Below, one piece after another: positions 11,396 through 51,798 of a stretch of DNA of 64,000 bases. The notes below the pieces were generated by a model. It worked only from the letters and a program-made list of their open reading frames with translations, had not been told where the DNA came from and did no database searches. The translations under genes were made by a program, and so were the position numbers. Position 1 is the stretch's first letter. The number at the start of each line of letters is the position of its first letter. The stretch comes from Apostichopus japonicus (Eukaryota; Echinodermata; Holothuroidea; Aspidochirotida; Stichopodidae), in NCBI RefSeq assembly GCF_037975245.1, contig NC_092562.1:5870001-5934000 (forward strand), given 5' to 3'.

Positions 11396-11690
11396 TTCAG
11401 AAAGACCTCAGCAATATGTGTTACTTCTTGGAGGAAGCAAAATACATCCTCAGCAGTCATTTGTGATCATCGAGAGGCATGCTCTACCCCAGAGGACATT
11501 TATGAAGCCATTGATGTTGCTTCAAATCATTCTACGTGTTAAATCTGAATTATACCAAATTGCAAGTTTCGGTGCCTGGGAATTTTTCCAAAAAGTTGTC
11601 AACCAGTTGCCTGGTGGTGTGAAGTGCAACCAGATTCGAGATTTATATGCTTACCGTGCCAACAAAAAAGACAAAGTAACTGCAGTTTAG
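11396..11690 (+). pseudogene. Last exon of a SAM-partner-type gene (relic)
   Basis: After a TTTCAG acceptor the frame reads through to a TAG at 11688, with characteristic stretches HALPQRTFMKP and WEFFQKVVNQLPGG. From memory these match the C-terminal part of a large family of uncharacterised animal proteins, often labelled SAMD3-like, to which the 531-residue protein at 32724-46085 also belongs. Only this exon and a possible first exon at 8161 remain in element 2. Stop-free length and splice signal support a formerly real exon. The 164-bp tandem array begins within its final codons. Confidence 0.5.
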
Positions 11691-12190
11691 CAGTTGTCAT
11701 AGACAGCACTCCACGTTTCCTCATCTCACGGATCAGAATGTATGTAAAGTTGTTACTTATTTTGAATTCTCTTTGGGAAGAGTTGTTTCTTTGTGTTTAA
11801 TTTGGAATACCAAAGGTACGAGCCAACAACAAAGACAAAGTAACTGCAGTGTAGCAGTCATCAGAGACAGTACTCTATGTTTTCTCATCCCACGGATCAG
11901 CATATATCTAAAGTTGTTGCCTATTTGAAATTGACTTTGGGAAGAGTTGTTTCTTGTGTTTAATCTGGAATACCAAAAGGCATTTGCCAACAACAAATAC
12001 ATAGTCACTGTAGTGTAGCAGTCATCATACACAGCACTCCACGTGTTCTCATCCTATGGATCAGAATTTCTCTAAAGTTGTTGCATATTTGAAATTGACT
12101 TTGGGAAGAATTGTTTCTTTGTGTTTAATCTGGAATACCAAAAGGCATGTGCAAACAATAAAGACCAAGTAACTGAACTGTAGCAATTGA
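11658..12190. repeat. 164-bp tandem repeat, about 3.2 copies
   Basis: The phrase GCCAACAACAAAGACAAAGTAACTG recurs near 11658, 11822, 11986 and 12151, so the period is 164-165 bp. The first copy overlaps the end of the coding exon at 11396-11690, so the array is an expansion of the 3' end of that gene. Confidence 0.85.
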
Positions 12191-24459: not shown

Positions 24460-24985
24460 GGTATCTCGATTTGTGTTTGTTTCAATTTTATCATCTTGCT
24501 TTTATACTGCATTACGTGAAGCTTTATCTACGATACTTGAACTATTTAAGGTGCCTTTGTCTGTTGTTTCAATTATATTTCAAAACGATATGTTTGAATT
24601 GCTTCCCCTCTTCACTTATGTGTCTTAATAAAGTAGTAACCATCAAATTGTTTTGGTACTTCACCACTACTTTTTGTTATTGCACAACTTTTCCAAAGTT
24701 AATCCGGCCGCCTACACCAGTCTGTGTTTGTGTTTGTTTCAATTGTATCCTTTTTCGATGATGCTGCATTCCGTGAAGGTTTATTCTACGATACTTCAAC
24801 TATTTAAGGTGCCTTTGTCTGTTGCTTCAATTATATTTTGAAACGATATGTTTTAATTGCTTCCCCTCTTCAGTTATGTCTCTTAATAAAGTAGTAACCA
24901 TCAAATTATTTTGGTACTTCCCCACTACTTTTTGTTATTGCGAAACTTTTCCAAGGTTAATCCGTCCACCTACACCAGTCTATCT
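24460..24985. repeat. Two-copy direct tandem duplication, unit about 258 bp
   Basis: The block starting TGTTTGTTTCAATTTTATC near 24473 recurs near 24730 with about 90 percent identity by eye, up to the CCTACACCAGTCTGT/CTATC junctions. It lies directly upstream of the phospholipase start codon (24428, minus strand), so it would duplicate promoter or 5' UTR sequence. Confidence 0.85.
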
Positions 24986-30450: not shown

Positions 30451-30710
30451 CTATGCATGTATCTAAAAAAAAAAACTAATTGTCTTTTTGTAACATTTCT
30501 CAACTTATTTTATCGTTTTACCTATTTTTAAGTTGAGAATGTCGAAAATTTCAGTTTGGAAAATTGAATGTCGCATTGCTTTTAAGTCTTGTGTAATTCT
30601 ATTGAGTTGTTACACCATACACTGTTAAAAAAAATTCTGTTAAAAAACAGAATTTCTCTGGCAGCAGAGTTTTCAGAAAATGTCTGTTATTTCCAACTGC
30701 AGATAATCTA

Positions 30711-31200
30711 TGTAAAATAAACAGTCTAAAACTGTTTTTTATACAGTTTATATCTTTCATTATAACAGTTTTTGTCCGTAAACTTACTGTACGACGACCG
30801 TTATTTTACACCATATTCCATGTAAAATAAACAGTCTGAAACTGTTATTTATACAGTTTTTTCCCCCATTATAACAGACTCTATTCGTAAAATTACTGTA
30901 CGACGACCGTTATATTACACCATATTCTATGTAAAATAAACAGTCTGAAACTGTTATTTATACAGTTTTCCCCCCAATTATAACAGTTTCTGTCCGTAAA
31001 ATTACTGTATGTCAACCGTTATTTTACACCATATTCTATGTAAAATAAACAGTCTAAAAATGTTATTATACAGTTTTTCTTTGCATTATAAAAGTTCTTA
31101 TCCGTAAAATTACTATATGACGGCCGTTATTTTACACTACATTCTATGTAAAATAAACAGTCTGAAACCGTTATTTACACAGTTTTTTCTTGCAATATGT
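30711..31200. repeat. Left subterminal array, about 109-bp period, five units
   Basis: TGTAAAATAAACAGTCT recurs at 30711, 30821, 30930, 31039 and 31147. Each unit also holds CTGTTATTTATACAG, a short palindromic context. Such arrays serve as transposase binding sites in CACTA elements (family knowledge). Confidence 0.9.
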
Positions 31201-31395
31201 AATTTTCTCTGTAAAATAACTGTATTGTAACTTTTAATTTACTGTATCTTTTAGGTAAAGTCTAGTCTTCAATGTTATCTATAGTTTTTTTCCTTGCAAT
31301 AAATGGGTCTTTGTCTGTAAAATTGGCTGTCAGATGGAATTACTATTATCAGTGAGATTATAAAATAAAAAAGCAACTTATTGTTCTCTGAAACT

Positions 31396-31401
31396 TTTAT
31401 T
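31396..31401 (-). promoter_or_regulatory. Candidate poly(A) signal of the SAM gene
   Basis: AATAAA is present on the minus strand about 1.3 kb after the SAM-gene stop codon. It lies just inside the left subterminal array, a sensible place for the 3' end of the transcript. Confidence 0.35.
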
Positions 31402-32723
31402 TACAACTTCAAAACTTGTTGAAACATATTTTTGAATGTCAAAACCTTAAAAGTAATATATAAGACTGAACATCAGAAGGCAATCTCTTATTGATGACTG
31501 GGAATTTGCTGGGTGACCCAGCCTTTCTTTTGGAAAAGGTTTTGTTATACAGACGATACTTTCATTGTTTGGAAATATACTGATAAGTCTGTATGTGGCC
31601 ATATTTGTCTCTTCGGCCACTTCAGGAAATCCTGGATCAGCCCACTGAAAGTTTTCACAATTAACTGATCATAAAACACTAAGCTTTGACACCTGCTAGT
31701 TCCTCGCCCTTTCTATTGCTCTACAACAAAGTTCCTTTCCCTCTTATTTACAGATGCACTTGAAGTATGCAAAGGTCACTGTATTATGTGACCACAGAAA
31801 CTTAGGTGTCTTCACTATTCTTCATTTAACTTTACTACAACTATACTCATTTCATGTATTTTTAAATGTTCTAGCATTATTAAATATATCGCTCATATAA
31901 CATATTCACTTTAATGGGCATATCAATGTTCACAGAAAATTAATACCTTTAACTGTGGTAACTCCTCTATCGCTGATAAGGATTGAATACTTTTTCTAAT
32001 TTTCATGACCTTCTTTAGCCCTTTAAGTTCAAAGTGGAAGTTAAAGACAAGGATATGTTACAATACGTAAGAATAAAGGTTAACTATTCTGTTAACCAAA
32101 GATATTGTAAATCATCTGATCAAAAGATATATAAACAATGATTTGACCTTTGTACCTGGAAATGATTAAAAAAGTTGTCCTTATATTCCTGTGCTTCTGC
32201 TGTTGAGTGGAAGGAGCAGTTTTATGAAAAGATTTCATGTCAACATTTAGCAGAGAGATTTTATATTTTGACAACAAAATATAGTTTAGATATCAAGCTT
32301 ATAGCATTAACAAAATTAACAGAATAACTTGACATCTGAAACTATTATGGATTCAAAACTTTTCTAACATTTGTGAACCTGCTTGGAAGAGTTTCAGAGT
32401 TTATGGAGTTATTGGAAAGGTGTCATGATAGCACCAAATAATAGTCTTTAACAATTTTGTCAACAAGTAAAACCTTGTAAATATCCACCAACAAAGTTAA
32501 ACACAATAGTTTGAACTCTGTATAAATGTTTAACTGTTCATTTGTAAAAGAGACTTCTCTGTAGCTGGAGAGTCTATGGTTCCAGTTAAGGAGGCTCAAG
32601 AGGCTCGCTAACATTTTCTCAACTAGGAACACTTTAAATCAACCAAGTGACCTAGATTTATAATCCAAAGTTACCAAATTGTCAGACTAATGTGACCAAT
32701 CACGGGAAGTGCCTGAAAAGCAT

Positions 32724-35700
32724 TTAGACTGTCCAATCTGACTCAAACTCCTTCAGGTTTCCAACCAAAGCCAAAATTTTTGGGTTGACAGGATAGCTCT
32801 TCTTGGATTTGGGGGTCTTTCTTCCCTTGTCTGGATTCAATCCAACAAAGCAGCTGCAAAGAGGAGCAAAATTAGAACTGTGAAGTCATAAAGTTCAAAT
32901 AAGTTTGCAATTATTAAACCATTTAACAATTAATTTCCCTTGGTCCCAAATTTACACTACAGTATGTCATACATGATAGTAAGATGTGACACAACTCAGT
33001 TTCCAATTGTATGTGTGCTCACTGGCGTTGATAGAAGCAATTGAGCTGGATACCTGTCTTAATTTGCAAGCCTTTGGAATTCAACAGTTTTCTAGGAAAT
33101 CATGATCTGAAAAGAAGAGCTAATTTGTGAATCCTCTTTTAATTTCAATTTTGTTCAGTTTAAGCTGATACCCTATAGTTGTAACAAATTGTGCAGGTGT
33201 TCTCAGTAAGTAACCAAACTCATACATTACCACCCTTTTCCAAAATAATAAAACATGCCATTCAACTATTTACACTAACTTTCCATTGGTGAAAATAATG
33301 TAAAGGTCATCAATGTTTACAAAAGGTTACCAAAGCTGCTGTTATTCTTGGACCACAACAAATAGTACAAAATAAGTAAATCAGCTGTAACTGAGAACAG
33401 AGTATGATTTATTTCAATGATCTGCCTAGGGGTAGAGTTAACTGCAATTTGTTGATTTTTTTCTTTATTGGTACCTTTATGATCGGCTGATCTTTTGAAG
33501 GTGGCTAATAATATGCATACACTCTTACATTCCATGTCAAGGGAATGTCCACACAAAATAACATTGGTTAACTATTACTAGGGTACTTTCAGCCTACTCA
33601 CCGCTGGATAAACTCCATTAAAGTTGCACCTTCAGATGGATACTCAATGTTTAAGATGAAAAACATTGCAAACAGCATGGTCATTGCACTTTCAAAAGTT
33701 TGAATGTGGTCATTAACAATAACCATATCTACTGCCAACATAAACTTTCTTCCAGTGTACATGTTTGGACCTGCAAAAAATAAATATCAATTACAACTAT
33801 TAAGAGAATGTCCAGTTAAAGTTAATGCCACTGCTATGACTACCACTACTTTACAGTTGCAGCGTGAATATACTCCAACTCGCGTGCACTAATGGGTCAT
33901 TATTTTTTATTCAATATTTTTATTACCGGTATTCAAGGTTTGTTTCGGATGCACTTGGTATTTCGATATATTCGTTGATGGCAGATTTCAATATTGTCAG
34001 TGTGGATATGAAAGAAAAAACAGTTTATCTGATATATCGATTTACTGAGGCACCCTCAGCAACACAAAAATGACATTGAAAATGTTGCAATGGTCAACCA
34101 ACATGTTTTTACCACATATGAAGTAAAAAATGGGCTATAGTTCTTGAGTTTCATGTTACATGCTGAGCATCAAATGCACACATACAGCTGAATTGATGCA
34201 GTAACAGAGTTTTCCCAGTTAAATCTCATATGGACTCATGACTTTGTCTTCCACAGGTGATAGTGCACCATGGGGTGTCATTGACACACTTGCCATCATA
34301 TAACTTCCTAAGTTTCTCTAATCAAAGATTCCCAAATTTTGACCCCTGTTGATTCAAGTGACCACACCTACATACCACATGAGATCTGTCCAAGCTTCCC
34401 TTCTTGAGATATCATGTTTACAAAGTATTCAGTTTCACCTCTGTTGACCCCAAATGATCTTTGACCTTTGCCAAAAACAATAAGGCTTCTTGTACTCTAT
34501 CGGGTACACCCACATGCCAACTATGAGATCTGTCTAAGCTTCCTTTCATGAGAAATTGTGTTTACAAGGTAGGCATCACTAAAATACATACACACGCACA
34601 CATACTCACCATCACAAATTTCAAACGTTACAACTATCATCCAAACCAAAAAGGGAAAAAGAGCAGTGTATATGTACTGGAGGAAATGCATCTTAGAGCA
34701 AAATCCTCCAAATGCTTCTCACCTTGAATAATGATGCATGGGGATGTTGACTTCAGATCCTTAGTGATATTCTGCACAGTACTGGTTTCCTGAACATAAT
34801 GTAAATGTAGGAACAATTAAATTGTTTGGAATACTTATCTTATTATATAGTGGGACAAAACATTCAAGATGCCATCTGGGAAACAGGAGTTTCTTCCAAA
34901 GCATAACATAAAACAATGAAACTGAGGGACAATATGTATCCCTGAAATCAAAATGATGACAATGGGGAAGATCTTAATTAACTGATGGCATATGATGTAC
35001 TGAACTTTGGACTTCAGAGTCCCAATACACAACAATTACAGCTGACCTACAAACAGTGAACATCGCAGAGGAAAATCGTTATAAAGTCAATCAACTTGAC
35101 CAATACATCTACATAACTGTAAGTTTAAGAACGACAAACCAGAGCAAAACACAAAAACACAGACAAATAGTGCTATTCTGAGACAGTTCACAAGCTTAAT
35201 GATTTATAAAGGTAGCTACTTCTTACCTTTGCAAGGTAGAAAAGATCGTCCCATTTATCTCCAAGGTGATTGCAGAGGAGGAGAATAAGTCCTGGAACAT
35301 CAGGAGAATGATCACCACTTTCCTGCTTAGCACTCTCCACATCAGCTATTATATTTTGCACCTCCTTCTTCTTCTTTGCTGACACTTGCAGAAACTTCTG
35401 AATTCGTGGACTTTTATCTATAAAAGCTGTAGTGAGAACTGATTTCAGTTTGATGCCCACTAAATCTTCAAAATGTCCCATCATCCCAACCTCTTCAAAC
35501 AAGAAAGGATATTCATCAAGGAGAGCACATACAGGAACTTGCTGACTGTTTATCTTGGCACGGATGGTTGGAAATACAGTTTTCATGAGGAAAACAACCT
35601 CATTGTCATCCCATATGTTAAGTTCATGCATCACCTTTAAGTCATCTATCTTTTTTCTCTGCGTGTCTCGATCCTCCCCTTCAGGTAGGTCCTCTGGTTG

Positions 35701-38700
35701 CCAGTTTTTGCAGCCATCCCAGGTGAAAATTCCAGTTAATACCTGTTGAACTGGTTTTAACAGGTACCTGTTGCAACTGGTATTTGGTGACAGGTAATAA
35801 CAGGTATTAAATGGTATTAACGGGTGTTGACTGGTATTGACAGGTATTAACTGGTATTAACAGGTTTCAACTGTTTTCAACAGGCATAACAGTTTTTAAC
35901 TGGTATTAACAGGTATTAGCTGGTATTAACAGGTTTCAACTGTTTTCAACAGGCCCAACAGCTTTAGCTGGTATTAACAGGTATTAACTGCCCTTACCCA
36001 ACACGAATAACTATTAAGTATTCGCTAAGTATTCGCTAAGTATTCGAATAGCTATATAGTTGGTATTTCAAAAATTTAAGCATTCAGACTTTAGAATAAC
36101 TAATTGAATACTTAAAATAACTATTCCAATAGGTATTCGAATACTTCTTTCCTTCGAATGCTTAGAGAATGCTAAAAATAGCTATTCCAATAAGTATTCG
36201 AACACCTATTTCATTGAATGCCTATTCGAATACTTATTTCCTTTTGTAAGATGGTCAGCTCTTACATAAAGTTTTGTTTTGTACCATAGTTTTACTTGTT
36301 TATTAGGTGCATTGTGCACAGAACAGAGGGGCTATACATTTGTACAGTATATTTGTATGTTGTCTTGTGGATTAAAACCTCTACACTTCTACCTCTTCTA
36401 GGTTGCTAGGCAACTATCTTGTTCTTCCTGGAAATTAGCTCTCACAGGAAATGGGGTCTGTGTGTGTATATTTTAGTAACAAAGGGAGTTTTGTGAGGGG
36501 TATAAGGAGTTAGGCAGTTGGCTATAAGTATCTGAGCAAGGCAGTTGCAAAAGAAGAGAAAGATAGTTTTAATGGCTGGATAGTTTGTTTTATTCAACTG
36601 ACAGTCTGGGACACTATTTTATTATAAAGGATATTATTTTACAATAAAGGATATTCCGGGACACCATTTCTTATAAAGGACATTATTTTACTACAGAGGA
36701 TATTGACATTATTTTACTGAAGGATACCCTGCGACACCATTGCTTATAAATTAAAGGATAATACTTTGTTGGGATCGGACATTCATTTAATACCATTTAT
36801 TGTGTTTAACTATTTCTGATGTTGTGGAATATCTGATGTTGTGGAAGATATGATGTCGTAGAATACTTGATGTCACCAGCAGGCCAACTCACCAGAACAG
36901 ACTTTTAAATTAAGTGTATTTATTTTAACATTTGGGTGTGACCTCACGACTGTAAGTTATTTTATTTACTTCTTTGACTGGGCCCAGATCAGCTGAATAT
37001 TGTTTGTTATTCATAATTATAATTTTTTTTTTATCCAATCCGGTTGAGTTTTCCAGTTTTGATGTATCTGCTCTGTGTTTGGTCTTCCAACCAAACCCAG
37101 AGTTCTCTGATCAAGAACAAACATTTTTTTTCAGTGGCTAACACCCTTACACTTTGAACAGCGCAAAAATATTTGAAATATACCGCGGAGGATTTAATAG
37201 CTGAAGCGTTTCCAAAATTTCATCGATCATATTCATAAGACCTACTGTTTTAGTATTCTGTGCTTAATACTCCATTTCAAATAGATATTTATTCCTTGTG
37301 AATGTTATTCAACTTTTAATAGCAGATTTAATCAAGAAGCTAGGACAACAAGCTGGCCAAATTCCTAACTCTCCTTACTTGGAACTAATTAGCATACAAG
37401 TATTCAATAAGTATTCAAGTAAGTATTCAGAAACCTGTTAAGCCTTCATAACATAACTAATTAGCATACAAGTATTCGAATACTAGCGAATAAGTATTCG
37501 AATAACTATAAGTATTCGTCAGAGCCGAATTATTTAAATGAGCGAATACTTATATGTAAATGAGCTAAGTATTCAAATAGCTATTCCAAAAGCTACTCGA
37601 ATACCTATTCGAATAGCTATTCGAAGAGCTATTCGAATACCTATTCGAATACCTAACAGGTATTCGAATACTTAACTCATTTACATAATTCGGCTCTGAC
37701 GAAGGCTTATAGTTATTCGTATTAGTATTCGAATACTTATTTTGTACTGTATGTTATATGGTAGATTTTCTGAATACTAAGGAAATCTTTGAATACCTAT
37801 CGAATACTTATCGAATATATTCGTGTTAGGTAAGGGTGGTAATAACAGGTTTCAACTGTTTTCAACAGGCATAACAGTTTTTAACTGGTATTAACCGGTT
37901 TGAACTGTTCTCAACAAGTTTCAACAGGCACAACAGCTTTTAACTGGCATGAACATGTATTAACTGGTAATAACAGGTTTCAACTGTTTTCAACAGGCGC
38001 AACAGCTATTAACTGGTAATAACATACTGTATGAACTGGTTTCAACTGTTTTCAACAGGGGTAACAGGTTTTAACTGGTTCTGTTTTCAACATGTCTTCA
38101 CTGGTATTGAAAACGTTTGAACAGGTAAGAACATGTATGGAAGGTTTTAAGCTGGTTATAACAGTAGGATTTTCCACAGGTTCAATTGTTTTCAACAAGT
38201 TATCTGGTGAAAACAGGTGGCGATGAATTTCAACAGGTTAAAATTACTCTTTACAGTTGCACATGATGTAGGTCTAACACTTAACAAGCAAGTTAAGGCG
38301 AGGGAGAACTTCCAGCAGATGGAGTAAAAATCACTGTTAACAAAAATCTGAAAATATCATTTTATTCCAACAAAGTTACTTAGACAAGTTAATGGATCAA
38401 ACATGAATGGCAAAAGTATAGTACTGCACAATAATGCAAAGTTGAGGGCAATGAAAAAGAAAACATAAATTTGGAGTCTAACAAGAAAGCAAACTTCTAG
38501 AGTAAACGCTTTCATATTACACATTAAAAACTTACATATATTATGAAATACCAACTAAATATGTTCATTAAAACAATGATTTCATGTTCTGCTGTGGCAA
38601 TTATGAAAGGAAACTCTATCTGTTAAAACAATATAAAGGTTAATTTTTTATCAATCATTATATCAAAATAAAAGTTACAGCTGAATAGATAAAAGTTATT

Positions 38701-41700
38701 CAAGAGTTAGCATTACCAAACTACTGTATGTAGTGTGCAATTCTGCATGCTAGGCAGACAATAATAATAGCTAGTCAGACAGTAACCTTTTGAAAGGAAT
38801 TCGTTCTTAAATTGGCTACCAATCAGATCTTAAAAAAACAATATTTACCTACAAAGCATGTATTTGTAATGCATATTTTTACTGAACACATATGTGACGA
38901 CAATATACTGTCTATTCTGGAGTTTGAATAAAAATCTAAATACTGTTTAATGGCATTTGTACATACTGATTACTAGAAATGTTAGTTCTTTAAAAAAAAT
39001 AAGGCAAAAGTGGAAAGATGACTTTGCCAAGTAAAAGTCAACATCAGTCTATACTAGTCATGGTTAAACCACTTTCAAGAAAAAACTGTCCAGAAGATCT
39101 CCATTGAAAACTTAAGTTGTAATTGACAGCAACATACTTTCCATTTCCTGAATTTAATTAAAAAACTAAATACTATATAATGGCAAACAATAACTGTTTA
39201 AAACATAATAATAAATATGGGTTTAATCCTACTTTGAAAAAAGAACTGTCTACAAAAATTCCTCTGAAAAGTTAACTTGTCAGTGACAGCAATATGCTGT
39301 CAGTTTGAATAAAACTAAAGACTGTTTAATGGTAAGCAATAACCATTGAAAAAAATAATATGATACTAATGTTTTAAGGCCTTCTTTGTTTTACGATTGA
39401 CGTCAGCTTCTCGGATATGTATTTGCTGAACCTTGCAGCTTCCTCATTAAACTGCAGCTTTCTTTCAAACGTTCCACGAATTGTGCTGCAAGAAACAAAG
39501 CGTATGAACACTTAAGAATTGACTTATCATGATTAACAGTAACAGTGTGGTCCTAAAACTTAACAAACTCTCTTGCATTGCTAGATGAGTGCTTTCATGG
39601 AAAGTTAAGGTCAAACTTTCCTATGGTTTAGAATGTCTCACGATATTTATCTCTGTTGGTATCCAACCTGAATGGACTAGCAATCACAGTCTAACCAAGA
39701 ACATTCTTTTGGTTTAGAATTTGGGTTTGCTCAATCTTTTGGTTGGAAAAACTACACCACTATGGTAGTTTGATTGTATGCTTCCTGTCAGAACTCAAAG
39801 GCAATTAAGAACCAACCAAAATGATATCAGTTGTTAACTCATGATACTGGAATGCATAATCCTACTGATAAATAGTTCTGTCAATGTTAAAAAATTAGTT
39901 ACTCCTGAAAAACAGCTTATTCAGTACAGTAAATTATATTGTACACTTGTGTACTAAGTCATGAGCTTGTAATATAAATGGTAACTTGTTTGAAAGCTTT
40001 TCATAATGACTAACCTTCCATAGCATTAAGCTTCACGGGAGACAACAGCGGTTTTGCATCTCTGTCACTGCTGAATTGTGTTGAATGGTTTTCAAAGTGT
40101 TGGTACCCCAAATCAACACCAGTAAAGTCTTCACGAACATAGAGTGTTTCTCTTAACTACAAATGGCCTCCCACTTGTCTTCAGGAAGCCCAAAATCTGC
40201 ACCAATATTGACCTGTGAACAGAAAATATGATATACCTGTAAGCATATATACAGATATAGCACATGATAACTCATATTATCATAAACATACATTAACATT
40301 AACATTTTATATTGATATTGGGAGGTAAACATTTAAATCAAGGTCCCTCAAGTTATAAGCCAGGAATAGCAGCTTTACCAAATAATTACTAGCTTTGCAC
40401 TATAACACCAAGTTATTTTTCAAAGCTTAATAACCATGTTTATAATTATCCCAAATCAGTAAAAAATTGGCCAAACTTATGACGCTTGTACGTAAATGAT
40501 GTACCAGACTGTTTTTTATATATTATATATAAACAGGTTATGAAAAGTATCTAAATAATATCATTACACATTTGGGTACAATAGTTAAACTCACCCTTCC
40601 ATCTTTTTTTCTCTATGGCACTTGTTCCTTTGCTTTTTGGACTCTTGGATAAACTCTTAATATCATCTTACACCATTATGTCTTTAAGCCATATACGTTC
40701 TCCTCTTCTGTTGTTGCCTCCACACTGGTGTCGTACATCACAGGAAACCTCACCTGGATATTTGGTTTTTCAATTCTTCCTAGAAAAAGGAAATAGCAAA
40801 GCAGCAGTAGTCATGAATCATTTGAAAAAATGAAATAAAGTTGTCACCACAAAGTGATGTGAGATTTGCTTCCACAATAGTCTGAAAAAAGGATTCCCAA
40901 AGTCTGAAGCAGACTGTATAAAGCTGAACATTTGAACCAGAGTGTCATCATTGCAACCAGAATCAAATGCCCAGACTACAGAGATAATAAAACATGGGCT
41001 AAATCTTTGTTTGTTTTTAAGATCTAAAAATACAAGATTTTAGAAACACAAATGCACTGAGCCAACTTATTTATAGGCCTAATTGTTTTAAGTTGTTATT
41101 TTGCTTGCTCACTTAACAAGTCTTATTTAGACCTAGGCTAGAGAAGAAACAGTTCTTTTTCACACTGAGTCAGTTTGTCTTTCAGTCGTTTTTTTAGTCT
41201 TACTAGTAGTAGTACTAAAGTATATAATACCGGTGACTAGCCAACATAATTTGTTCAGCCTACTGTAACAGTAAGTTTGAAGGTCTAGCCTTGTTTTATT
41301 CAATATCACATAGCCTACCCATTTAGATTCACATGGGAAATTCAAGAAATCTTTACCAAATGAGTGTAGACCTAAGCTTCAAGTAAACTACAGTATTGAA
41401 ACTCAGTCCCAGCATTTGTTTGGAAATAAATTAGAAGATTATGTGCGACTGTTCAATCTAGCCCAATACACACATAACACATTGTTAATTGGTGTTTAGA
41501 ATGCACAGTTTAGTGTTGAGAACGCACTGCAGTACTCAATAGAAAACCTAGGCTACTCACTGTCATTGCACTTGTGTATCGCGAAACGCTAGCCTAACAA
41601 CGGTCACAAGTGCCAGTGGCCTAACAATTAACGTTAGTTTTACCTCCAAGTTTAAGGAACAACAGGTAGGCCGATGGTGGCGGTTAATACTTCCATTCTT

Positions 41701-44250
41701 ATATAGATCTTCTTGGGTGATTAACAGTTGAAAGTTGCTTAGAGTGATCGTATTAAACCATGCCAAGCAATGCTTACGCTGTGCAATGCAAGTTCCCGTT
41801 GCTCCTCGGTTTCGAAATTGAATATGGTGTTGAAGTCAAAGTTCAACCTCGTACAAAATGTGATTATCGAAAAAATTTAAAAAATTGTCTTTGGCCCCAA
41901 TTTGAGAGTTTCATGTCACTAAAAATTACAAATGTTATTAATTGATATTAAAAATTTAAACAAAAGTTAATAAGAAAGAATTAAATCATAATACAATTTA
42001 AGCATTAATTATTTTTATCTTGATCTTGACTTGGCAATATGTGTCTTACTTTCTTAGACTATGAATCACTGATCTAAATATAGATGCGAGCTCGTCTCAA
42101 TCTTTTGATGTATGTGTATGCTACGTATTCATATACTATCTGGAAGAACTCTCTCATAAATTTAATATGTGAATTTTTCATTTTACCTTAATGTACCAAA
42201 TAGGATAAACAATTCAGTGATCAGACATATGTTATACCATATCTTTGCAGTGGCAAAGCCAGCGAGGGCGGGGAAGGGGGGGGCAGGGGAAAGAGTACCT
42301 CCACAAAAAATTTTGGGGACGTGATGTCCGACGGTGAAAAAAACGAAGGGAGCAAAAAAAGAGGAAATAATTGCATTATTTTGCATATAAGCCCTTTATG
42401 AGAAACAAAAATTTTCAAGCCCCCCTCCCCTCATAAACCTTACCTGACAACGGTGATCCACCATTATGTGCCTTAAAGTGGAGACAGAAATTTGAACCAA
42501 CTGGTACCTGTTGAATGCAACTGGTGTAACAGGTACCTGTTAAACCAGTTGTTTTCAACAGGTACCTGTTAAACCAGTTGTTTTCAACAGGTACCTGTTA
42601 AACCAGTTGTTTTCAACAGGTACCTGTTAAACCAGTTGTTTTCAACAGGTACCTGTTAAACCAGTTGTTTTCAACAGGTACCTGTTTAACCAGTTGTTTT
42701 CAACAGGTACCTGCAGTTTAACCAGTTGTTTTCAACAGTTACCTGTTAAACCAGTTGTTTTCAACAGGTACCTGTTAAACCAGTTGTTTTCAACAGGTAT
42801 TTAACCTGTTGAAAGCAACTGGTTTAACAGGTACCTGTTAAAACCAATTGGTACCTGTTACAGCTTACAGGTAATTTACCTGTTGCAACAGGCAATTAAC
42901 TGGTATAAACTGGTTTTGGTCACAATACCTGTTAAAACCAGTTGTCGTTAACAGGTACCTGTTAGTCCCTGTTGGTTCCGGTTAAAACCAATTGAAATTG
43001 TAACAGGTATTAACAGGAATTTTCTCCTGGGATATGAGGTGCTGAGTTTACACTTCTTTGGTAGTGCTTCATTCTGTTCACCCTCTACAAACAGGGGGTA
43101 ACCAACATTTAGGTGAAGTTTGCCTCTATTGATATTGCTCATACGGTTTTCCAACTGTGTAAGAAGGGATGCATATCCACTACCAACAACAAGTCCTTCA
43201 ATGTCATCTTTAAAGGGTTCTGGAAACTCACGAACGATCTTCTGTGCAATAATAGAAAGGTGCTTTCGTCCTGGACTTGACTCAACTTTCATTATGTCAT
43301 TGCATAATATTCTGATCATTTCACGCCGATCTTTGGGAGTGGGTCTCTGTTTCTTCTGGAGTGATTTTGTAAGGCTTTTAGGCATTTTATCCCAATCAAC
43401 TTTAAATGACTCTGCCCAATCTGCAATTACCGCTGCTGGACTTGATCCTGCTGAACTGGGCACCCAGCTGCAGCCTGGTGAACTGGCCACAGAGTCGGGT
43501 TCAGATGATTGTGAAGATTCTGATCCAAGCAACTTTTCTTTAAGAATGAAAATATGTCACATCAATGAAAGTAGATGATATGAAATGAATAAACAACCTT
43601 GATAAATTATTTCCTGATAACAGACATTTATTGCATTAAGGTACTAGTTTTTTGGACACTCACAGAACATCAGCATTTACACAACAAACAGGGGCAGCAC
43701 TCAAGCTCGCAATCTATCGAATCAAGCATATCTTCAATTGGCAACAGGGGCATTCTCTGACACGTCTGTTTAGGTTGCTGTGGCCGAGAAGATAAAGGCG
43801 GTGGCATTTGAAGCAATGAGGCTTAGCAATCGGGAGGTTCGGGGTTCGATTCCCGGCTGGGTCATAGTAAGGTGGGTTTTTCAACCAAGAGCAATCTACG
43901 ATTTTCCCATCTGAAATGACTTTCTAAATTGAAAAGATCCAAATTTGAGTTAAAATGTTGAATTGGAAGCCACCCGACGTGTAAGTTGTAATTCATAAGC
44001 CCTTGCGGTCTTCTCCCACATTTGTGATCGCTTAAGCGTCGTAAAAATAACTGCTGATTATTATTATTATTATTATTATTATATTATTACTATATTATAT
44101 ATATTATTATATTATATATATTATTATATTATATTATTATTATATTCAGGGTTTTCGTTAGTAGCCGGGACCCGGGTCAAATGACCCGCTTACTGCACGT
44201 AAATGAATGACCCGGCTACTTTGCGACGCTCAGTAAAAAAAATAATAAAA

Positions 44251-44286
<36 letters not shown>

Positions 44287-46085
44287 TGACGAAAAAAATC
44301 GAGAGGAATAAAAACCCACAACCAGATCAGGTGTGATTGAAACTGTCACAGCAGTTAACTGTTGGTAAAAACTACAAGAAGTTGAACATTAGTAGTATGG
44401 TCGAGGAGATGAGGCCGAGGGGTGGGTGAGAGTAGAGGTAGGCGAAGGGCTTCTCTTGACATACAAATTGTTGCTCAACAGAGATAAAAGCTGAATAAAA
44501 AACAGAAGGTTCTATCACAGACCTAGTTGGGTATTTTTTGGCAGTAAAATCCTACTCACTTTGTAGGTACCGTAGACCTATTATCATTTTGTTATGATCG
44601 CACTTCATTTAATGCAGCAAGTGCGTCACACCCTTGCTAAGTTCCGTTCAGTGGCATAGCTACCTCCCTAGGCTCCATGACCCGAGTGTTAATAAAAAAA
44701 TTCAGGAGAAAAAAAGAAAAATAGGACAGAAGAAAGGGGTGATTGGGAGGGGGCAATATCATTGACCAAACAACTGCATATTGAACCATTTTGCATCTAG
44801 AGACTTTTTAAATTGCAATTTTCCGGCTTAGACCCCTCCCCCATGTCCGCGTACAGACAGTCCCGTCTACTTTTCAACTTGACCCACCTACTTCATTTCT
44901 TAACAAAAACCCTGTATATTATTATTATTGTTATATATTATTATTATTATATTATAGGTTAAGTCTCTGCTTGTTTGTTGACGTAGACAATGGCTTTGTA
45001 CACATATACACACCGTACCGTATGCCATATGGACCTTGTGCATAAGCATCGGACAAGGCTTGCTTTATAGTTTAAGTTGTCAAGGTGTATTCTTATACTG
45101 TATGGAAAGCAAGCCATTGCCACAGTTCTCTGCATCTTTCAATCAGTATAGCCGAAGTGTGAAATTATTGGGGCAATTTTTGTTGATTATTGGATACAAG
45201 TGTTTTTGGGGCAAAGTAACACTCATACATATCAAATTGTTGCGTCACTGGTCACTGCAGACGTTTGCGTAGTGCCCGCTTATTTGGACCCCAAAGTGGG
45301 GCCCAAGTATGATCCCAGAGTTGAGGTACCCCATACTACCCCATAGTGGTTGTTTTTCAAGGTGACCTTTAGCCTTGTCATACTCCCATATGAACTTCAA
45401 CATCCTCTACAAACAACATAGAACGTATGTTCTATGTTTAATTTGAATTAAAAAGAAGGGTTTCCTCTTTTCTTGATGATAAATATTTTAGTTTGGGTAT
45501 GTGGTGTATCATTTCATTAGTTTGACCTGGTGTTTTCTGTGTGTTCTATTTGCTCACTACTTGAAACCTACTTAAAAAAATTCAAATCTAATGTATAATA
45601 CTAATAATTAACCAGAAAATTTTCTTTAGAGAATTACAAAAATGCTAATGATGTACTATGTGACCAGTTTCCTTATTCAATTTGTGGTACCAGCAACTGT
45701 CTTAGACAATAAGAGAAACTTCTGTGTATCACATGTACTTACTATTTAGACATTTTTCCATCTCCTCTTGTAACTTACTTCTTAACCTCCCCTTTCCTCA
45801 AAAAAAGGAGGATAATCATATTTAGAAAGTGCAATTATATTTCTGCTTACCTGCCTTGTTTGCCCATGCTAGTAACAGCTTTCTCCTCTGTATTGGCTTC
45901 AGTACACTGGAAAGGTCATCATCAGTGATCAGCTTGAGATCGCACACACTTTCCACACCAGCAGCCAGGAGCTGTTCAACTACTTTGTCCACCATTTCAA
46001 GTGGCAGTGAAGGAAGATGCTGCATTATGGATGAAGCAACATCTTCAAGACAAATTGTATCATCTGATTGTTCTGACACGCTCAT
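32724..46085 (-). CDS. SAM-domain accessory protein of the 20.7-kb element, interrupted
   Basis: The coding exons are 46085-45851, 43537-43032 plus 35715-35227 (one exon split by a 7.3-kb insertion), 34789-34723, 33770-33602 and 32853-32724. All real junctions are GT-AG with matching phases. The sum is 531 residues. Residues 1-78 hold a sterile alpha motif-like helix bundle ending SVLKPIQRRKLLLAW. About 120-245 is a conserved block with KMPKSLTKSLQKKQRP and PKDRREMIRIL. About 248-410 starts GCKNWQPEDLPEGED and contains YPFLFEEVGMMGHFEDLVGI. The C-terminal part has FIQRCFVGLNPDKGRK. From memory this is the uncharacterised SAMD3-like family seen in fish, cnidarians and echinoderms. The role is unknown; binding to the transposase or DNA is inferred only from co-residence. 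Confidence 0.75.
33800..34660. repeat. Diverged two-unit repeat in an intron of the SAM gene
   Basis: Phrases with GAGATCTGTC.AAGCTTCC…TGTTTACAA occur near 34380 and 34525, giving two diverged units of about 145 bp beside sequence rich in TGACCTTTG words. Probably an interspersed repeat; family not recognised. Confidence 0.45.
35227..35715 (-). CDS. Second half of the interrupted SAM-gene exon
   Basis: It resumes with the codon for Gly248 (GGC at 35715-35713) and encodes residues 248-410. It ends at GCAAAG|GTAAGA. The joined reading Y-G-C-K-N-W-Q-P is what the family shows at this point. No GT or AG is found at the break, so the 7.3-kb stretch is an insertion and not an intron. Confidence 0.8.
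35991..37836. mobile_element. 1.85-kb TIR element nested in the 7.3-kb element
   Basis: The ends are CCCTTACCCAACACGAATA and, inwards from the right, CCCTTACCTAACACGAATA (one mismatch). TG is duplicated outside (35989-35990 and 37837-37838). Both subterminal zones (36010-36240, 37390-37830) are dense in GAATACTTATTCGAATA-like palindromic words. No gene was recognised inside, so it is non-autonomous. Confidence 0.82.
39374..40779 (-). pseudogene. Decayed three-exon gene inside the 7.3-kb element
   Basis: Exon-like blocks with splice borders lie at 40779-40595, 40212-40015 and 39485-39374 (stop). They include readings such as PNIQVRFPVMYDTSVEATTE, VNIGADFGLPEDKWEAICS, GVDLGYQHFENHSTQFSSD and FERKLQFNEEAARFSKYISE. 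The first exon has in-frame stops and the second a frameshift (TGTAGTTAAG), so the gene is broken. I do not recognise the family. Position suggests a cargo or accessory gene of the nested transposon. Confidence 0.5.
42497..42815. repeat. 29-bp tandem array with a perfect palindromic core
   Basis: About nine units of ACCAGTTGTTTTCAACAGG-containing sequence repeat every 29 bp. Each carries the 14-bp palindrome AACAGGTACCTGTT. It forms the right subterminal zone of the 7.3-kb element. Absence of unique spacers rules out a CRISPR array. Confidence 0.92.
43032..43537 (-). CDS. First half of the interrupted SAM-gene exon
   Basis: The acceptor is at CTTAAAG|AAAAG, giving phase agreement with the SAM exon. 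It encodes residues 79-247 with the conserved KMPKSLTKSLQKKQRP block and GYASLLTQLENRMSNINR. The frame stops making family sense exactly at the Tyr codon at 43034-43032, where the terminal repeat of the nested element begins. Confidence 0.8.
43774..44146 (+). repeat. tRNA-derived SINE with ATT tail
   Basis: The head (43774-43866) begins GTTGCTGTGGCCGAG and has the B-box GGTTCGATTCC at 43843-43853, with a Leu/Ser-tRNA-like layout. A body of about 185 bp follows, ending CGCTTAAGCGTCGTAAAAAT, then (ATT)n at 44055-44146. It lies in an intron of the SAM gene in opposite orientation. Confidence 0.88.
44147..44914. mobile_element. 768-bp TIR element in the SINE tail
   Basis: The ends CAGGGTTTTCGTTA and TAACAAAAACCCTG form an inverted repeat with one mismatch, flanked by TATATT-like sequence. 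The flanks lie in an ATT microsatellite, so the target duplication (perhaps TATATT) is ambiguous. CAGGG termini suggest hAT. It contains an A-rich tract and no gene. Confidence 0.7.
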
Positions 46086-46106
46086 TTTAACAAGAGAACC
46101 TCAGAC
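45851..46106 (-). CDS. SAM-gene exon with start codon
   Basis: A TACTCAG acceptor precedes 46106. A TGA lies in frame just upstream of the ATG at 46085, so translation starts here and does not continue from the 913-residue frame further upstream. The exon ends in GCAG|GTAAGC, phase 1. The peptide has SAM-like features (VVEQLLAAGVESVCDLKLIT, then DDLSSVL). Confidence 0.75.
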
Positions 46107-46489
46107 CTGAGTAATGGAAGTGAAGGTTTTAGTTCCTTCTCAATTCAGAATAATTCATATGCCACATTTGCTTACTATAAGTTTCTTTGTAAGGCCCATT
46201 ATATACTCCTAGTTGTTCCATAATTGAGCTTGCACTCAAACATAGTTCTTTAAATGGAAGGCACTTTACATGTAAACACAAAGCCTTACTTAGATATTAA
46301 TTGATAATTATTTCCTAACTTTACAACAGTTTTTCTGCAGTAATATCAACAAATGCATAAGCTATTTAACAAGTACATGTATGTAATGCTTCAAGTTCAT
46401 TAGCATGGTTCTAAGAGAAGATGATACATTGCACCATCTTAAGTCAATGAAAATACGCCCCAGTTGTATAGCATTTGCCACTTACATGC

Positions 46490-49231
46490 CTATAAAAGCA
46501 CTGCAGCTAATGGCTTATGCTTTAGTGAAAGCAAAAGCCTTCCTCTCACAAAATATGCCGACAATGGAAAATAATCAGCAAGCTTAGAAATCTGCACACA
46601 AGACACTATATTCAAAGGCTGCAAACAGTAAACTCCAGTGGTGTGATTGAATGATCCACTGTGCATCTTTACGACAAGGTACACAATATTTTGGCTTTCA
46701 ACAACTGCAAACAAAATGCAACCCAATTTAAGACTTGAAAAGCATGTATCAGAACACTGACATATTACAAAGAAACCCTTCTGGTAAGAAGTGCCAAACA
46801 TCTGAACTCTGTCACTGATAACAGAATCATCAAACTTTACATTTGCTGCCTGCAAAGCATGCTTTATTTCAGGCATGAAACATTCTATGTTGAGGGATGT
46901 GGCATTTTCAATAACCAATCTATCAGGATATATTTTCCCTGAGCTGTTATAAGCTTGAAAGTACTGGTGTTGATTTGCTAAAGACTGTGTAACATTGATG
47001 AAATTTTGTGCAGATCTGGCACAACGCTTGAAATAGGAGTGCTTACTTTCGAAGCGTAGAGTCCACACTCTCATTAATGGTCCAAACTTTATAATTAAAT
47101 CTGGATAGTGGCTCAGGAAATGATGTTTTGGTCTGAGGGGAGTATCAGCAAAGAGTCGTTTTCTCTCAGTCAAGTATTCCTCCATTATCACCCTTAAATA
47201 TGCAAGTTGCTCATGTGAAATCTTTGGAGAACACACATACTCAACAACTTCTCGTAAAAGAAGAAAGAGTCTCCATACAAGGTCATTATGATCTTTAACA
47301 TATGCACTCAAAATAATTGGAAGAAGTCTCAAAAGGTTCCAGTTTTCAACGGCCTGACCACCTAAGCGGTTACCTGATAAATTTACAAATGCAGGTTTAT
47401 TGTTTGCATCGCGTCCTTGAAATTTAAACTGTACCAACATTATATTCAAATCTGCATATGTGAACCAATGTTTTTGTTTAATCCAGTATTGAATAAACAT
47501 GGCTACATCGTAATCAACAACTCCTTCAAACAAGTCGTGCCCCAGGCATGGTGGCAAACCAGGTGCACACACATGAAAATACCTCAAAGAATTAAAACAT
47601 GAATTAAATTTAATTCCTTGATGATGATTTTCTTCATGATCTTCAAGGTGTGCAATGCAAGAATCATACTCCTCCTTGGTTCTAGGCTTCCCAACAGCAT
47701 ATGGTGCGTTACATTTGAAGTCATGTGAAGTTAATAAACAGTAGCGGCACATGTTAGTTCCTGAAAAACTCTCAATGAAACCCCCAATACAATGGGAACC
47801 TAAATTATCCCCTAATATACAAGACAGCGCACCTTTCCAGACCACCCCGTCATTTGTTTCTATTCCAACTTCCTCTAATGTTTTCAAATCATTTATCACT
47901 CTCTCAAAAACCTTCTGCTGCCCAAAGACCTTAAAATCAACTTCTTTACACAAAAACACAAGCTGCATTGCATCAACAACAGATCTGTACTCAGGTTGGA
48001 TGTTTCCAAGTGTAAAGTACATTGCTAGTATTTTGTGTTTTTTTCTTGCTGACCCAAGTGGGTTTACAATTTCAAATGAGTCTTGATAGAGAATGATGGA
48101 TAAAGATCTTTCACAACTTTGAAACAAACTATTTTTTTTAAAAACTGTACCATCCACTATGTCAGTAAGAACAGATGAGTCTTCACTTTGGTGCCTACTT
48201 TGACATTGTCCCAACACAAAATCATCTGAAAGGAGCAACTGAATGCTCTCCTTGATTGGAATGTAATGATAGTAATGCATTTTTTGTGCTGAATCTCTCC
48301 CTAGTGATATTGCAATTGGAGCAACAAACTTGAATGCTGATTTATAGTACTCTTTTCTACAGTGCTGTGTTCTGAGTTTTCCTTTACAACTATCAATAGC
48401 AATCCATGCATCTATCTCATTCATATAATCGGCTACACATTTGATACGTTCTTCTGCTAAACCCTCATCTCTCAATTTTTGAGTAATTTTCAAAACCTGA
48501 TCTTGTTGACATAAACTGTGAATAGTTTGAAGCTCCTCAACAATCATTTGAATTGTTTGTGATGGAACAAGTTGTTTTGCCTGAAGTTTCAGAAGAAACA
48601 AGGAAAAATTTTGTTGAAATTGAAGCCTAGACTGACCTGTTTCTTGCGCCCTACCTTGGCAATTGTTACTGTTTTCGAAATCACAGCTTATGTCATTTTC
48701 ACGGACAAATCTATCAGTCTCTGTAGACACATCAAAGCAGTTAGTGTCTAGAGGTATATCTTGATCCAAAGAGCAATGATCACAAGTAGAAAGTTTGTAT
48801 TTCTCCAAAATGTTTACAGCTCCCCAGTTTCTGTGACAACGTGACAAATGTGCTGTAAATGAACTGGTTTTTGAAAAATCTCTTTTGCACTTCTTATATG
48901 GACAAGATACAATTTGGCCTTTTCTTATATGTGCTTTTAAGTGTGCCAAATATGAGGACAGATCTGTGAGTTCTTTTTGACAGATTTCATACGTACAAAT
49001 CAATGACAGGTTAACTGACTGAAGATTTGCTGCAATTGCTGTTTGCTTTTGAAGATGGCGGTGATACCTAGTCACATGAATCTTCATTGCAGCAAAAGTT
49101 GATAGGGTATAGCCACAATTTACAAAACAACATGGAAATCTCACTCGAGGTATATTCCTATGGGAACTCACATGATCAACATAGCTACGGATAGTAGCTG
49201 TTAGTATATTGCATATTTTACAGGTGTACAT
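46490..49231 (-). CDS. C2H2 zinc-finger DDE/Tnp2-like transposase, 913 aa, intact
   Basis: A single uninterrupted exon encodes 913 residues. Its acceptor (GAAGCAG) is at 49239, seven bases before the ATG. Four C2H2 fingers lie at about 4-24, 35-57, 79-101 and 110-133. A helical block follows (about 208-270). A catalytic-like core has Asp384 (LYQDSFEIVNP), Asp475 (ILGDNLGSH), a CxxC (MCRYC, 495-498), GHDLFEG (564-570), PKHHFLSHYP (701-710) and Glu728 (RFESKHSYFK). The order D, D, CxxC, HDL.EG and late E resembles Tnp2/CACTA-type RNase H-fold transposases with a large insertion (inference). From memory close relatives are uncharacterised, multi-copy proteins in fish and cnidarians. Location inside 17-bp TIRs supports a transposase role: cutting and joining the element ends. 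A domesticated role cannot be excluded. Confidence 0.72.
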   Translation of the reverse strand: MYTCKICNILTATIRSYVDHVSSHRNIPRVRFPCCFVNCGYTLSTFAAMKIHVTRYHRHLQKQTAIAANLQSVNLSLICTYEICQKELTDLSSYLAHLKAHIRKGQIVSCPYKKCKRDFSKTSSFTAHLSRCHRNWGAVNILEKYKLSTCDHCSLDQDIPLDTNCFDVSTETDRFVRENDISCDFENSNNCQGRAQETGQSRLQFQQNFSLFLLKLQAKQLVPSQTIQMIVEELQTIHSLCQQDQVLKITQKLRDEGLAEERIKCVADYMNEIDAWIAIDSCKGKLRTQHCRKEYYKSAFKFVAPIAISLGRDSAQKMHYYHYIPIKESIQLLLSDDFVLGQCQSRHQSEDSSVLTDIVDGTVFKKNSLFQSCERSLSIILYQDSFEIVNPLGSARKKHKILAMYFTLGNIQPEYRSVVDAMQLVFLCKEVDFKVFGQQKVFERVINDLKTLEEVGIETNDGVVWKGALSCILGDNLGSHCIGGFIESFSGTNMCRYCLLTSHDFKCNAPYAVGKPRTKEEYDSCIAHLEDHEENHHQGIKFNSCFNSLRYFHVCAPGLPPCLGHDLFEGVVDYDVAMFIQYWIKQKHWFTYADLNIMLVQFKFQGRDANNKPAFVNLSGNRLGGQAVENWNLLRLLPIILSAYVKDHNDLVWRLFLLLREVVEYVCSPKISHEQLAYLRVIMEEYLTERKRLFADTPLRPKHHFLSHYPDLIIKFGPLMRVWTLRFESKHSYFKRCARSAQNFINVTQSLANQHQYFQAYNSSGKIYPDRLVIENATSLNIECFMPEIKHALQAANVKFDDSVISDRVQMFGTSYQKGFFVICQCSDTCFSSLKLGCILFAVVESQNIVYLVVKMHSGSFNHTTGVYCLQPLNIVSCVQISKLADYFPLSAYFVRGRLLLSLKHKPLAAVLL

Positions 49232-49736
49232 TTCTGCCCTGCTTCACTATTGATTGGAGCTAATCAAAACTGATCATTTGAAAGAAACATGAATTATGCC
49301 TTTTCAAATTCAGTCATGTTCTAAAAGGCTAATTAACCTTTGCTAATCTAAAGACTTCATATTACATGCCACATGAGAGCCAATATCATCCATGTATGTA
49401 GGCTATCAGCACCAATTAACTTACAAGTTACAATGTACCCACCCTTATAATATTATATCATATTAACCTAAACAACATGAAGCAAGGCTAAGCTTCACAC
49501 GCACATATCAAAATGCACGGTAGGGCGACGATAGGTTGTATAATACAGCGCCAGTGTTTCTATAGTGATAGTCTAACTCTTAATTATCGTTCGTCTAGTC
49601 TACGTTATAGGCACTGGGCCCTACGGTTATAACTAAAATATAAACTAACTTTTTGTTATGACCAGACTTTCAAAGTTGTTTTGTTGATAATAATAATGCA
49701 AATGTGGCATATGGTTCAAATAAATTTACCACTCAC

Positions 49737-49904
49737 GTCTGACGAAGTACTCAATGAAGTCTTGTTCTGGTGTGGAAATGTGCGTAGCCTACTGGACAGC
49801 AACGGCAGTTGTTTTCCTCTCGTGTCGACGTACTTTGAAGCGCTGTAGTATTGTATTGTGCAATCTATACACTTCATACGTACGTTAATGCGAGATGCGA
49901 TCAA
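49737..49904 (-). promoter_or_regulatory. Candidate non-coding first exon shared by both element genes
   Basis: A strong donor (AGAC|GTGAGT) ends at 49737 on the minus strand. The next acceptors downstream are at 49238 (start of the transposase exon) and 46106 (start of the SAM exon). One promoter at about 49.9-50.1 kb could therefore make both proteins by alternative splicing. The exon start is not defined by the sequence. Confidence 0.4.
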
Positions 49905-50908
49905 TCATAATGTACAGAACAGCGCAGCATGTACTGGACGTTCATCGCGCCAACTTGGGTCATGTGACTGCATGCTGGACTGTAGCCAAGTTTTCCGGGA
50001 AAGCCAACGGCAGCCGCCCATGTATCAAAATAATTCCCGCCTGTGCGCGAGACGTCATAGCTGTTACAGACACGTTGGCGCCAATCATCGAGCTAGACCG
50101 GCTGGGTCGAATGGGAGGAGGGGTTGAGGGGGGGGGGGTGGTGGTTCAGATGAATGAAATGACATTTGCTGAACTAGACATATTTAACAACATTTTGATA
50201 CGTTCGGTGACCCATTTAGCTATAAATAGCTGCATGTGTGACCGTACATTGAGCACACGGAATTGTCATCGGTTCATGTTGTACTGACAATACAAGTTAA
50301 CATTAAAACAATGAATTAGACTACATCTTGAAGGCTGGGCATTGTATTCTTGGCAGCTCACATCAGTAATTGTTTTGATAGGATTTCGGAAGTTGTATAC
50401 TCCTTAAACAAACGGTAAACCAATTGGAACAGTACCATCTATGTCGTTTTCATTAGTTAACACGTTAGGCATTTACAAGTAATTCGTTACTAAAACTCTT
50501 GAAATGGTTAGATTTCACATATTTGACCTACAGACCCTTCAAGGTTATCTTTCACATTGTTTTCGTTCGCTGGACAATTAAGGGTCATTGATGAGCCTCA
50601 CGGGGGTGGGGGTTGTTGCTCAAATGTAAGTTTATGTAACACTAAGGCAGAAAACGACTGTAGGGACAAAGTTAACTGGTAATTGTGGGTTGGATCATGG
50701 AGCTATCGGTAATAGCTTCATGGTTGGATTTCATTCTTTTCTTTGCCAAACGGTAATGTTACTGCACGATGGAGTTTGTTGTATACCATTGTATATTGGT
50801 AACGTGTTTCCACCTTCAAGAATATTTCCGTATAACGCTCTTCAAATTCCAATTTTACATGCATTAAATTGCAAAACAAACTTATTCTGTAAAGTACATG
50901 ACACACAT

Positions 50909-51290
50909 AACGTCTGTAAAAATCACAGATTTTTACATGTAAATATAATAAACTGACTTATTCTGGAAAATTTTACAGAATTATCCTGTAAATTTTCATT
51001 GGAGGGAAAAATACTACAATTTTTTGTAAACCACTTGCTGTAACATAAAACGTCTGTAAAAATCACAGAATTTTACATGTAAATATTAAAAACTGACATA
51101 TTCTGTAAATTTTTACAGGATTTTCCTGTAAATTTTCTTTGGAGGGAAAAATACTACAATTTTGTGTAAACCACTTGCTGTACAGAAAACGTCTGTTAAA
51201 ATAACAGACGTTTACATGTAAATATAGAAAACCGGCTTTTTCTGTAAAAATCGACAGGAATTTACTGTAAATTTACAATTTTTTTTAACA
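50909..51290. repeat. Right subterminal array, about 139-bp period, three units
   Basis: AACGTCTGT(A/T)AAAAT recurs at 50909, 51049 and 51188. Units contain TTCTGTAAATTTTTACAG-like palindromic words, echoing the CTGT/ACAG content of the left array, although period and full sequence differ between the two ends. Confidence 0.9.
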
Positions 51291-51798
51291 GTGTAGGCAT
51301 AAGTAGTTAGTAAAGCCTACTTTAACTGACTAATATGACACTTGTTTAACGGTTTTGGCAAATCAAAGTTGACTATAACGGGCTTTAAACAGGGAGTCCC
51401 ACAACCAACTCCCAGAAGCGGAAGACGAAAAATACCTTAGACAACAGTAATAACAAGATGCGGTAATTTATTCATAACATGACATTCATTTCCGAAGAAA
51501 TATTGCATGTGCCATCTATACCCGTTGATAATTTTTGTCTTCTGTGTTTTTCCACCCAATTAATAATTTCTGATTTTAGGGTTTATTTTGTTATTCTGCA
51601 TTCTATTTTCTTGATATATTCAATGATAGTTAGTGACATGTTGTAAATACGTGATATTTGGTACTGTATAGTTCAGTGACACTTTTGAAGTTTTTTCCAA
51701 GCTATTTACTTCAGAATGTAATTGAGTTATCCTTGGTAAAGCTTTAAACAAAATTACACAACCCTTGTTACAGGGTTGGCATATTTTTGTGATGGTGT

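Follow-up and report, generated by a model that had tools for sequence, protein, structure and literature searches.

A two-gene CACTA-like transposon family in Apostichopus japonicus with a candidate DDE transposase and a SAM-like partner

In a stretch of 64,000 nucleotides of the Apostichopus japonicus genome (C2:5870001-5934000, hereafter the window), a zinc-finger gene and a gene with a SAM-like exon lie together between two exact inverted repeats. Are these two genes the components of one mobile element, which kind of element is it, and what would the second gene do in it? We consider it probable (about 0.8) that the segment 30620-51293 is a copy of a CMCT-clade DNA transposon that moves by cut-and-paste, has CACTG ends and 2-bp, mostly TA, target duplications, and carries two genes, a candidate transposase (gene 1, T) and its partner (gene 2, S). 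The CMCT clade groups CACTA/EnSpm, Mirage, Chapaev and Transib with Plavaka, ESTA and Lanisha (PMC12730594). Genome-wide counts refer to 671.6 Mb in 35 contigs. The window copy has the following features:

30620-51293, no strand: whole element copy, gene 2 side left, gene 1 side right; 20,674 bp, 13,358 bp minus the nested insertion
30618-30619, no strand: left target duplication TA, flank reading
51294-51295, no strand: right target duplication TA, flank reading
30620-30636, + strand: 17-bp terminal inverted repeat, gene 2 side, exact copy of CACTGTTAAAAAAAATT
51277-51293, - strand: 17-bp terminal inverted repeat, gene 1 side, exact copy of CACTGTTAAAAAAAATT
30703-31189, no strand: subterminal array inside the left end, 109-bp unit x 4.5
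50909-51274, no strand: subterminal array inside the right end, 140-bp unit x 2.6
46490-49243, - strand: gene 1 (T), zinc-finger transposase-type frame, 917 codons stop to stop, 913 from the first Met
45851-46085, - strand: gene 2 (S) exon 1, SAM-like domain, Met to the CAG/GTAAGC donor, splicing predicted
43032-43537, - strand: gene 2 (S) exon 2, first part, from the predicted acceptor TTAAAG/AA to the nested insertion
35188-35717, - strand: gene 2 (S) exon 2, second part with the stop codon, beyond the nested insertion
35718-43031, no strand: nested element of 7,314 bp, intruder in gene 2, with CCCAGG...CCTGGG inverted ends and a 2-bp AT duplication

The initial annotation had described exact 17-bp inverted ends flanked by TA, tandem subterminal arrays at both ends, an uninterrupted 913-codon gene 1 and two genes on a single strand, and all of this was recovered: on the minus strand, T is followed by S between the 17-bp ends. 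It had also described a two-gene element of 20.7 kb. T and S do occur together between the ends, but the window copy reaches 20.7 kb because a 7.3-kb nested element sits inside gene 2, and the element's own size is 13,358 bp. A length of 20.7 kb for the element itself was thus rejected, since the nested insertion explains the extra sequence and other copies measure around 13.3 kb; the uninterrupted site was seen at the position of the nested element in nine other copies. Gene 2 is broken in the window copy because the nested element splits exon 2, so that the idea of two working genes at this locus had to be abandoned and the accessory protein would need another copy as its source.

The exact 17-mer CACTGTTAAAAAAAATT was found 48 times in the genome; preceded by TA, it occurred 36 times in 671.6 Mb against none for a reversed control. 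With one mismatch, the 17-mer occurred 145 times against 105 for the control, which by itself hardly differs from chance. An S gene lies inward within 30 kb at 46 of the 48 exact 17-mers, the two others both being on C3, and this contradicts the possibility, raised in the initial annotation, that the ends are solo repeats unlinked to the genes. We recovered 11 head-to-head pairs of exact 17-mers, the window copy included. Five of the ten other pairs (C1 1.54 Mb, C9, two on C11, C22) span 13,292-13,362 bp, and the remaining five 9,632, 12,173, 12,559, 13,719 and 25,752 bp. The 13.3-kb copies on C1, C9, C11 and C22 are about 98-99% identical where compared and have different flanks. Six non-window end loci align to the window element up to its ends and stop at the TA, the alignment at L004 running two bases further.

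The flanking dinucleotides are equal in 10 of the 11 exact-end pairs (8 TA, 1 TG, 1 CA), and the target duplication is therefore 2 bp, usually TA. A 3-bp duplication was rejected because the third flanking base differs in all five dinucleotide-matched pairs for which the flanks were read. We likewise rejected TA as a part of the inverted repeat, given the TG/TG and CA/CA pairs that do without it; TA is a target preference outside the terminal repeat.

Three other arrangements of end-like sequences were observed. On C12 (G000:C12:5997082-6022833), two degraded copies of F1, the family of the window copy, lie inverted between two 17-mer ends with no matching duplication. On C4 (G000:C4:160255-172311), eight one-mismatch 17-mers follow each other on a single strand at spacings of mostly 1.05 or 1.5 kb, which looks as though a tandem repeat contained the end-like sequence. 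On C3 (G000:C3:21548489-21556389), an exact 17-mer and a 13-mer end motif are 7.9 kb apart with no gene 2 detected, possibly a non-autonomous derivative.

The association of the two genes extends well beyond the near-identical copies. The T searches were scored for the best 50 of 393 candidates (first search) and the best 56 of 362 (second search), and the pairing counts concern those. The first search gave 62 rows corresponding to 45 T loci, 39-100% identical to the window T, and S was present downstream on the same strand at all 45, 1.6-10.6 kb away, the maximum being the window copy with its insertion. The second search, whose query was a relative with 39% identity, added 20 mostly more distant T loci. 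Four of these have the S long exon and one more has a SAM exon 42 bp downstream (E 0.1), so that 50 of 65 T loci are accompanied by S or a SAM exon. Starting from the SAM exon, 49 matches had T upstream in 41 cases, S downstream in 46 and both in 40. The SAM-exon match starts 42-44 bp after the T match at three loci, and 423 bp after it in full F1 elements; for F2 and F3 the distance is about 690 bp and 2.2 kb, respectively.

For the first pairing count of S loci and for the count of S genes at the exact 17-mers, we left out matches that stem from the nested element (roughly the first 54 residues of the second-piece query) and minor C-terminal fragments belonging to S loci already listed, and first-piece rows of the companion search were not counted separately. 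The later count added 7 S loci and excluded 12 weak ones (C3, C4, C6, C7, C8:6870126, C9, C15, C17:7685636, C20, C21 and two on C11), none of which has any of the 65 T loci nearby. At the excluded C3 locus (17735463), an end-like motif was observed 4.8 kb outside, at 17730698.

Other families are framed by ends as well. Two F2 elements (C2 and C5, T 52% identical) carry ACACTGTTAAAAA at each end; the ends lie 13.8-13.9 kb from each other and enclose both T and S. This 13-mer is only about twice as frequent as its reversed control (334 vs 176), and single matches, among those listed, which reach C8, mean little; the F2 pairs are credible because both ACACTGTTAAAAA ends frame T and S, and not by the 13-mer alone. 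In the F3 elements the exact 17-mer marks the S side, and no T-side end was found.

Is T then a transposase? Its N-terminus carries C2H2 fingers. We aligned eight T sequences from seven families (two rows being from F2; residues are numbered after the first row of alignment A1), and identity to the window T is 51, 51, 51, 42, 42, 43 and 39% in the seven other rows. D383, D474, the CxxC at 494/497, the HxxxH at 703/707 and E727 were invariant in all eight rows, the catalytic D and E being assigned by motif. The signature of the CMCT clade is C(2)C and H(3-4)H between the second catalytic D and the last E (PMC12730594), and T presents this order, D-D-CxxC-HxxxH-E. The CACTG..CAGTG termini with 2 bp also agree with those of the clade, which are CA..TG in most cases with a 2-5 bp duplication. 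Ends, duplications and motifs together bear out the annotation of a terminal-inverted-repeat DNA transposon of CACTA-like type. In Pfam, Transposase_21 (Tnp2) matched two of the eight sequences below threshold (E 5.2e-4, with 19.7 vs a cut-off of 28.6 bits, and E 5.6e-3), and DUF4218 gave a weak match further along in a third (E 0.069); in plant elements, DUF4218 follows Tnp2. From the conserved motifs and the sub-threshold Tnp2 matches, we infer that gene 1 probably encodes a transposase with a DDE core. Transposase_21 matched the genome at 20 loci; as none of these is a T locus, the T family stands apart from ordinary Tnp2 elements. A sequence search of the PDB with the T profile returned only zinc fingers and chance-level other matches, and searches of viral_contigs with the T and S alignments gave 30 and 22 pattern matches, none confirmed as a relative.

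The partner gene is predicted to consist of two exons, the SAM exon being joined in frame to the long exon through the GTAAGC donor and, before 43537, an AG acceptor. In Pfam, the F2 SAM exon matched SAM_TNK (E 5e-4), SAM_2 (0.0098) and SAM_1 (0.19), all below cut-off. A structure model of the window SAM exon has five helices (predicted local distance difference test score, pLDDT, 76.5), and its 11 best PDB matches with Foldseek are all SAM-containing chains (probability 0.96, with an E-value of 0.32 at best); a sequence search of the PDB with the same exon gave one match, at E 0.86. The SAM-domain label of the initial annotation lies below every curated cut-off, and we regard a SAM-like domain in exon 1 as plausible. 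In F2, F3 and several F1 copies, the long exon has 350-392 open codons, and in F4 it has 318-319; F1 shares 43% identity with F2 and 32% with F4. It gave no convincing relative in Pfam or in the PDB (one match with the S profile, E 0.38); COG6_C (E 0.014) and ATG17_like (E 0.016) appeared in only one of three members and were taken as chance.

The T frame and the S long-exon frame are both free of stops in at least three other copies (C1 1.54 Mb, C9, C11 22.06 Mb). The T coding regions of the C9 and C11 (22.06 Mb) copies are identical, in line with the recent activity proposed in the initial annotation, and for the remaining pairs of the five F1 copies whose T frames are open, synonymous divergence (dS) is 0.002-0.018. 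Five F3 copies have a dS of 0 in 10 of 10 pairs. Judged from these coding sequences, the family has been mobile recently. Between families, dS is saturated and nonsynonymous divergence (dN) is 0.27-0.40; frames that stay open across saturated dS argue for selection between families.

Our best reading is a branch of CACTA-like transposons that has two genes and a mode of action like that of En/Spm, with the job of the accessory inferred. En/Spm needs both TNPD and TNPA, the latter recognising subterminal repeats (PMC2613891). It is the parallel anatomy, CAC ends, asymmetric subterminal arrays and a transposase followed by a partner on one strand, that leads us to propose a similar working here. 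T would bind the element ends through its C2H2 fingers and cut through its DDE core, as its motifs suggest, and S would be the accessory protein, functionally like TNPA. S may self-associate through its SAM-like domain and help to gather or to regulate the repetitive ends, and a single transcript may be spliced to yield both proteins, as it is for En/Spm and SmTRC1. We give about even odds to S being an accessory like TNPA in function, a role suggested by its position and its interaction-type domain.

Several observations weigh against this reading, either as a whole or for one of the genes. The window T matched only zinc-finger-type models in Pfam, all below cut-off, the window SAM exon had no Pfam match at E 1, and no model reached its curated cut-off for either T or S. 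The single-sequence structure model of T, examined for an RNase H-like core, has no usable fold (pLDDT 32.7), and the Foldseek E-values of the SAM exon are weak (best 0.32). No DNA-binding domain was seen in S, and the motifs common to the two subterminal arrays, whose 109-bp and 140-bp units are unlike each other, are modest. One exact-end pair (C12, 25.7 kb) has TG at one end and CA at the other, without a match. Within families, dN/dS is not consistently low: it is 0.18-0.52 for F1 pairs that include the window or C1 copy, but two F1 pairs reach 2.3 and three F2 pairs about 1.1, with few changes in all, so that selection inside families lacks support. Finally, 13 of 58 S loci have no T among the T loci listed from the first search, of which C8:15.33 Mb gained one in the second search and L047 and L049 are F1 copies with most of T deleted, and no S or SAM exon could be detected at 15 of the 65 T loci, every one of them added by the second search.

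These 15 of 20 added loci also speak for an alternative in which gene 2 is dispensable for transposition and hitchhikes between the ends as a factor for escape from silencing or for interaction with the host. Several fungal DNA transposon lineages carry a TET/JBP cargo gene proposed to be such a factor (PMC12730594), and the zinc fingers of T mean that end binding need not require S. However, S keeps the same side and strand at 45 of 45 first-search T loci across 39-100% T identity, whereas cargo genes would be expected to be more sporadic, and we consider this alternative rather doubtful. We are similarly reserved about T and S being alternatively spliced products of one larger gene, as with tnpA and tnpD of En/Spm: the two share a strand, the SAM exon starts 42 bp to 2.2 kb past T, and the transcripts of En/Spm and SmTRC1 are alternatively spliced (PMC1636069), but T has its own stop codon and the SAM exon its own Met.

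That T and S would be host genes at a locus between chance repeats, with no transposon at all, is next to impossible. No point in its favour was found in the single assembly searched, and it is opposed by the 13.3-kb copies on C1, C9, C11 and C22, about 98-99% identical with differing flanks and matching 2-bp duplications. We rejected a host locus without mobility on these grounds; the copies on many contigs equally speak against the conserved locus without inverted repeats that the initial annotation had named as a refutation. At the other extreme, S could be an obligate SAM-type partner that polymerises or dimerises to synapse the ends, that has accompanied the transposase ever since families now sharing 30-40% identity diverged, and from which animal SAMD3-type genes descend. 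This scenario seems unlikely to us; the resemblance of S to animal SAMD3-type proteins is our assumption. The T-S pair, kept over deep divergence in one genome and present in near-identical recent copies, offers a testable case of two-component cut-and-paste transposition, and a partner with an interaction-type domain may possibly have been a source of host SAM genes.

The nested element (35718-43031) is a different kind of sequence. Its inverted arms (32 nt, AT counted in) are 94% alike, it encodes no frame above 90 codons of its own, and it holds AACAGGTATT/ACCTGTTAAACC-type arrays. Many relatives were seen in the genome as paired end pieces, often separated by about 5.4 kb. It shares a 2-bp duplication with the element described here, but their ends differ and only the latter has a candidate transposase. 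A CCC start and a 2-bp duplication are common to the nested element and the animal TRC elements (PMC1636069), and it is possibly a non-autonomous TRC-like family; as it has no transposase, this likeness is a lead only. The window also contains tandem arrays at 24470-24981 (258-bp unit), 11656-12185 (164-bp unit) and 22120-22388 (122-bp unit), and frames at 16467-17760 that resemble, judged by eye, pieces of the endonuclease and reverse transcriptase of long interspersed nuclear elements.

How does the T-S element compare with known systems? The initial annotation took it for an undescribed one. We found no description of a SAM gene paired with such elements in the papers searched, with Repbase, most subscription papers and animal proteins outside the scope, and the claim therefore stands as unproven. 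Accessory proteins of CACTA-like transposons show little mutual similarity, and those known come mainly from plants (PMC2613891, PMC1636069). The plant En/Spm elements are similar in their CAC-type ends, their repetitive and asymmetric subterminal regions and their combination of a transposase with an accessory protein (PMC2613891). They differ by a 3-bp duplication, as in the soybean element, against 2 bp here, and by a TNPA that is described as a binder of subterminal repeats and not as a SAM protein (PMC2613891). The C2H2 fingers of T are a further difference. Relative to EnSpm/CACTA proper, the element thus has the repetitive subterminal regions, but neither the 3-bp duplication nor a Tnp2 match at the cut-off.

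SmTRC1 and the animal TRC elements, which belong to the CACTA superfamily, share with it 2-bp duplications, a Transposase_21-type transposase and a second open reading frame in tandem, the latter found in one cloned transcript (PMC1636069). However, TRC ends start with CCC, and this terminal core is absent from the CACTG ends here; no SAM-type partner is named in the accessible part of the TRC description (PMC1636069), and T is sub-threshold for Transposase_21. Compared by description only, the ESTA and Plavaka elements, described from fungi, have the CMCT motifs and 2-bp duplications in common with it (PMC12730594). ESTA are EnSpm-like elements with TA duplications, whereas TA is found in 8 of 11 exact-end pairs here and TG and CA also occur; Plavaka duplications are of 2 or 3 bp, with ends in TGT or CATCA instead of CACTG, and ESTA and some Plavaka carry the TET/JBP gene (PMC12730594). 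Since the 3-bp duplication of EnSpm, the Tnp2 cut-off and the TRC ends are all lacking, we file the element in the CMCT clade only.

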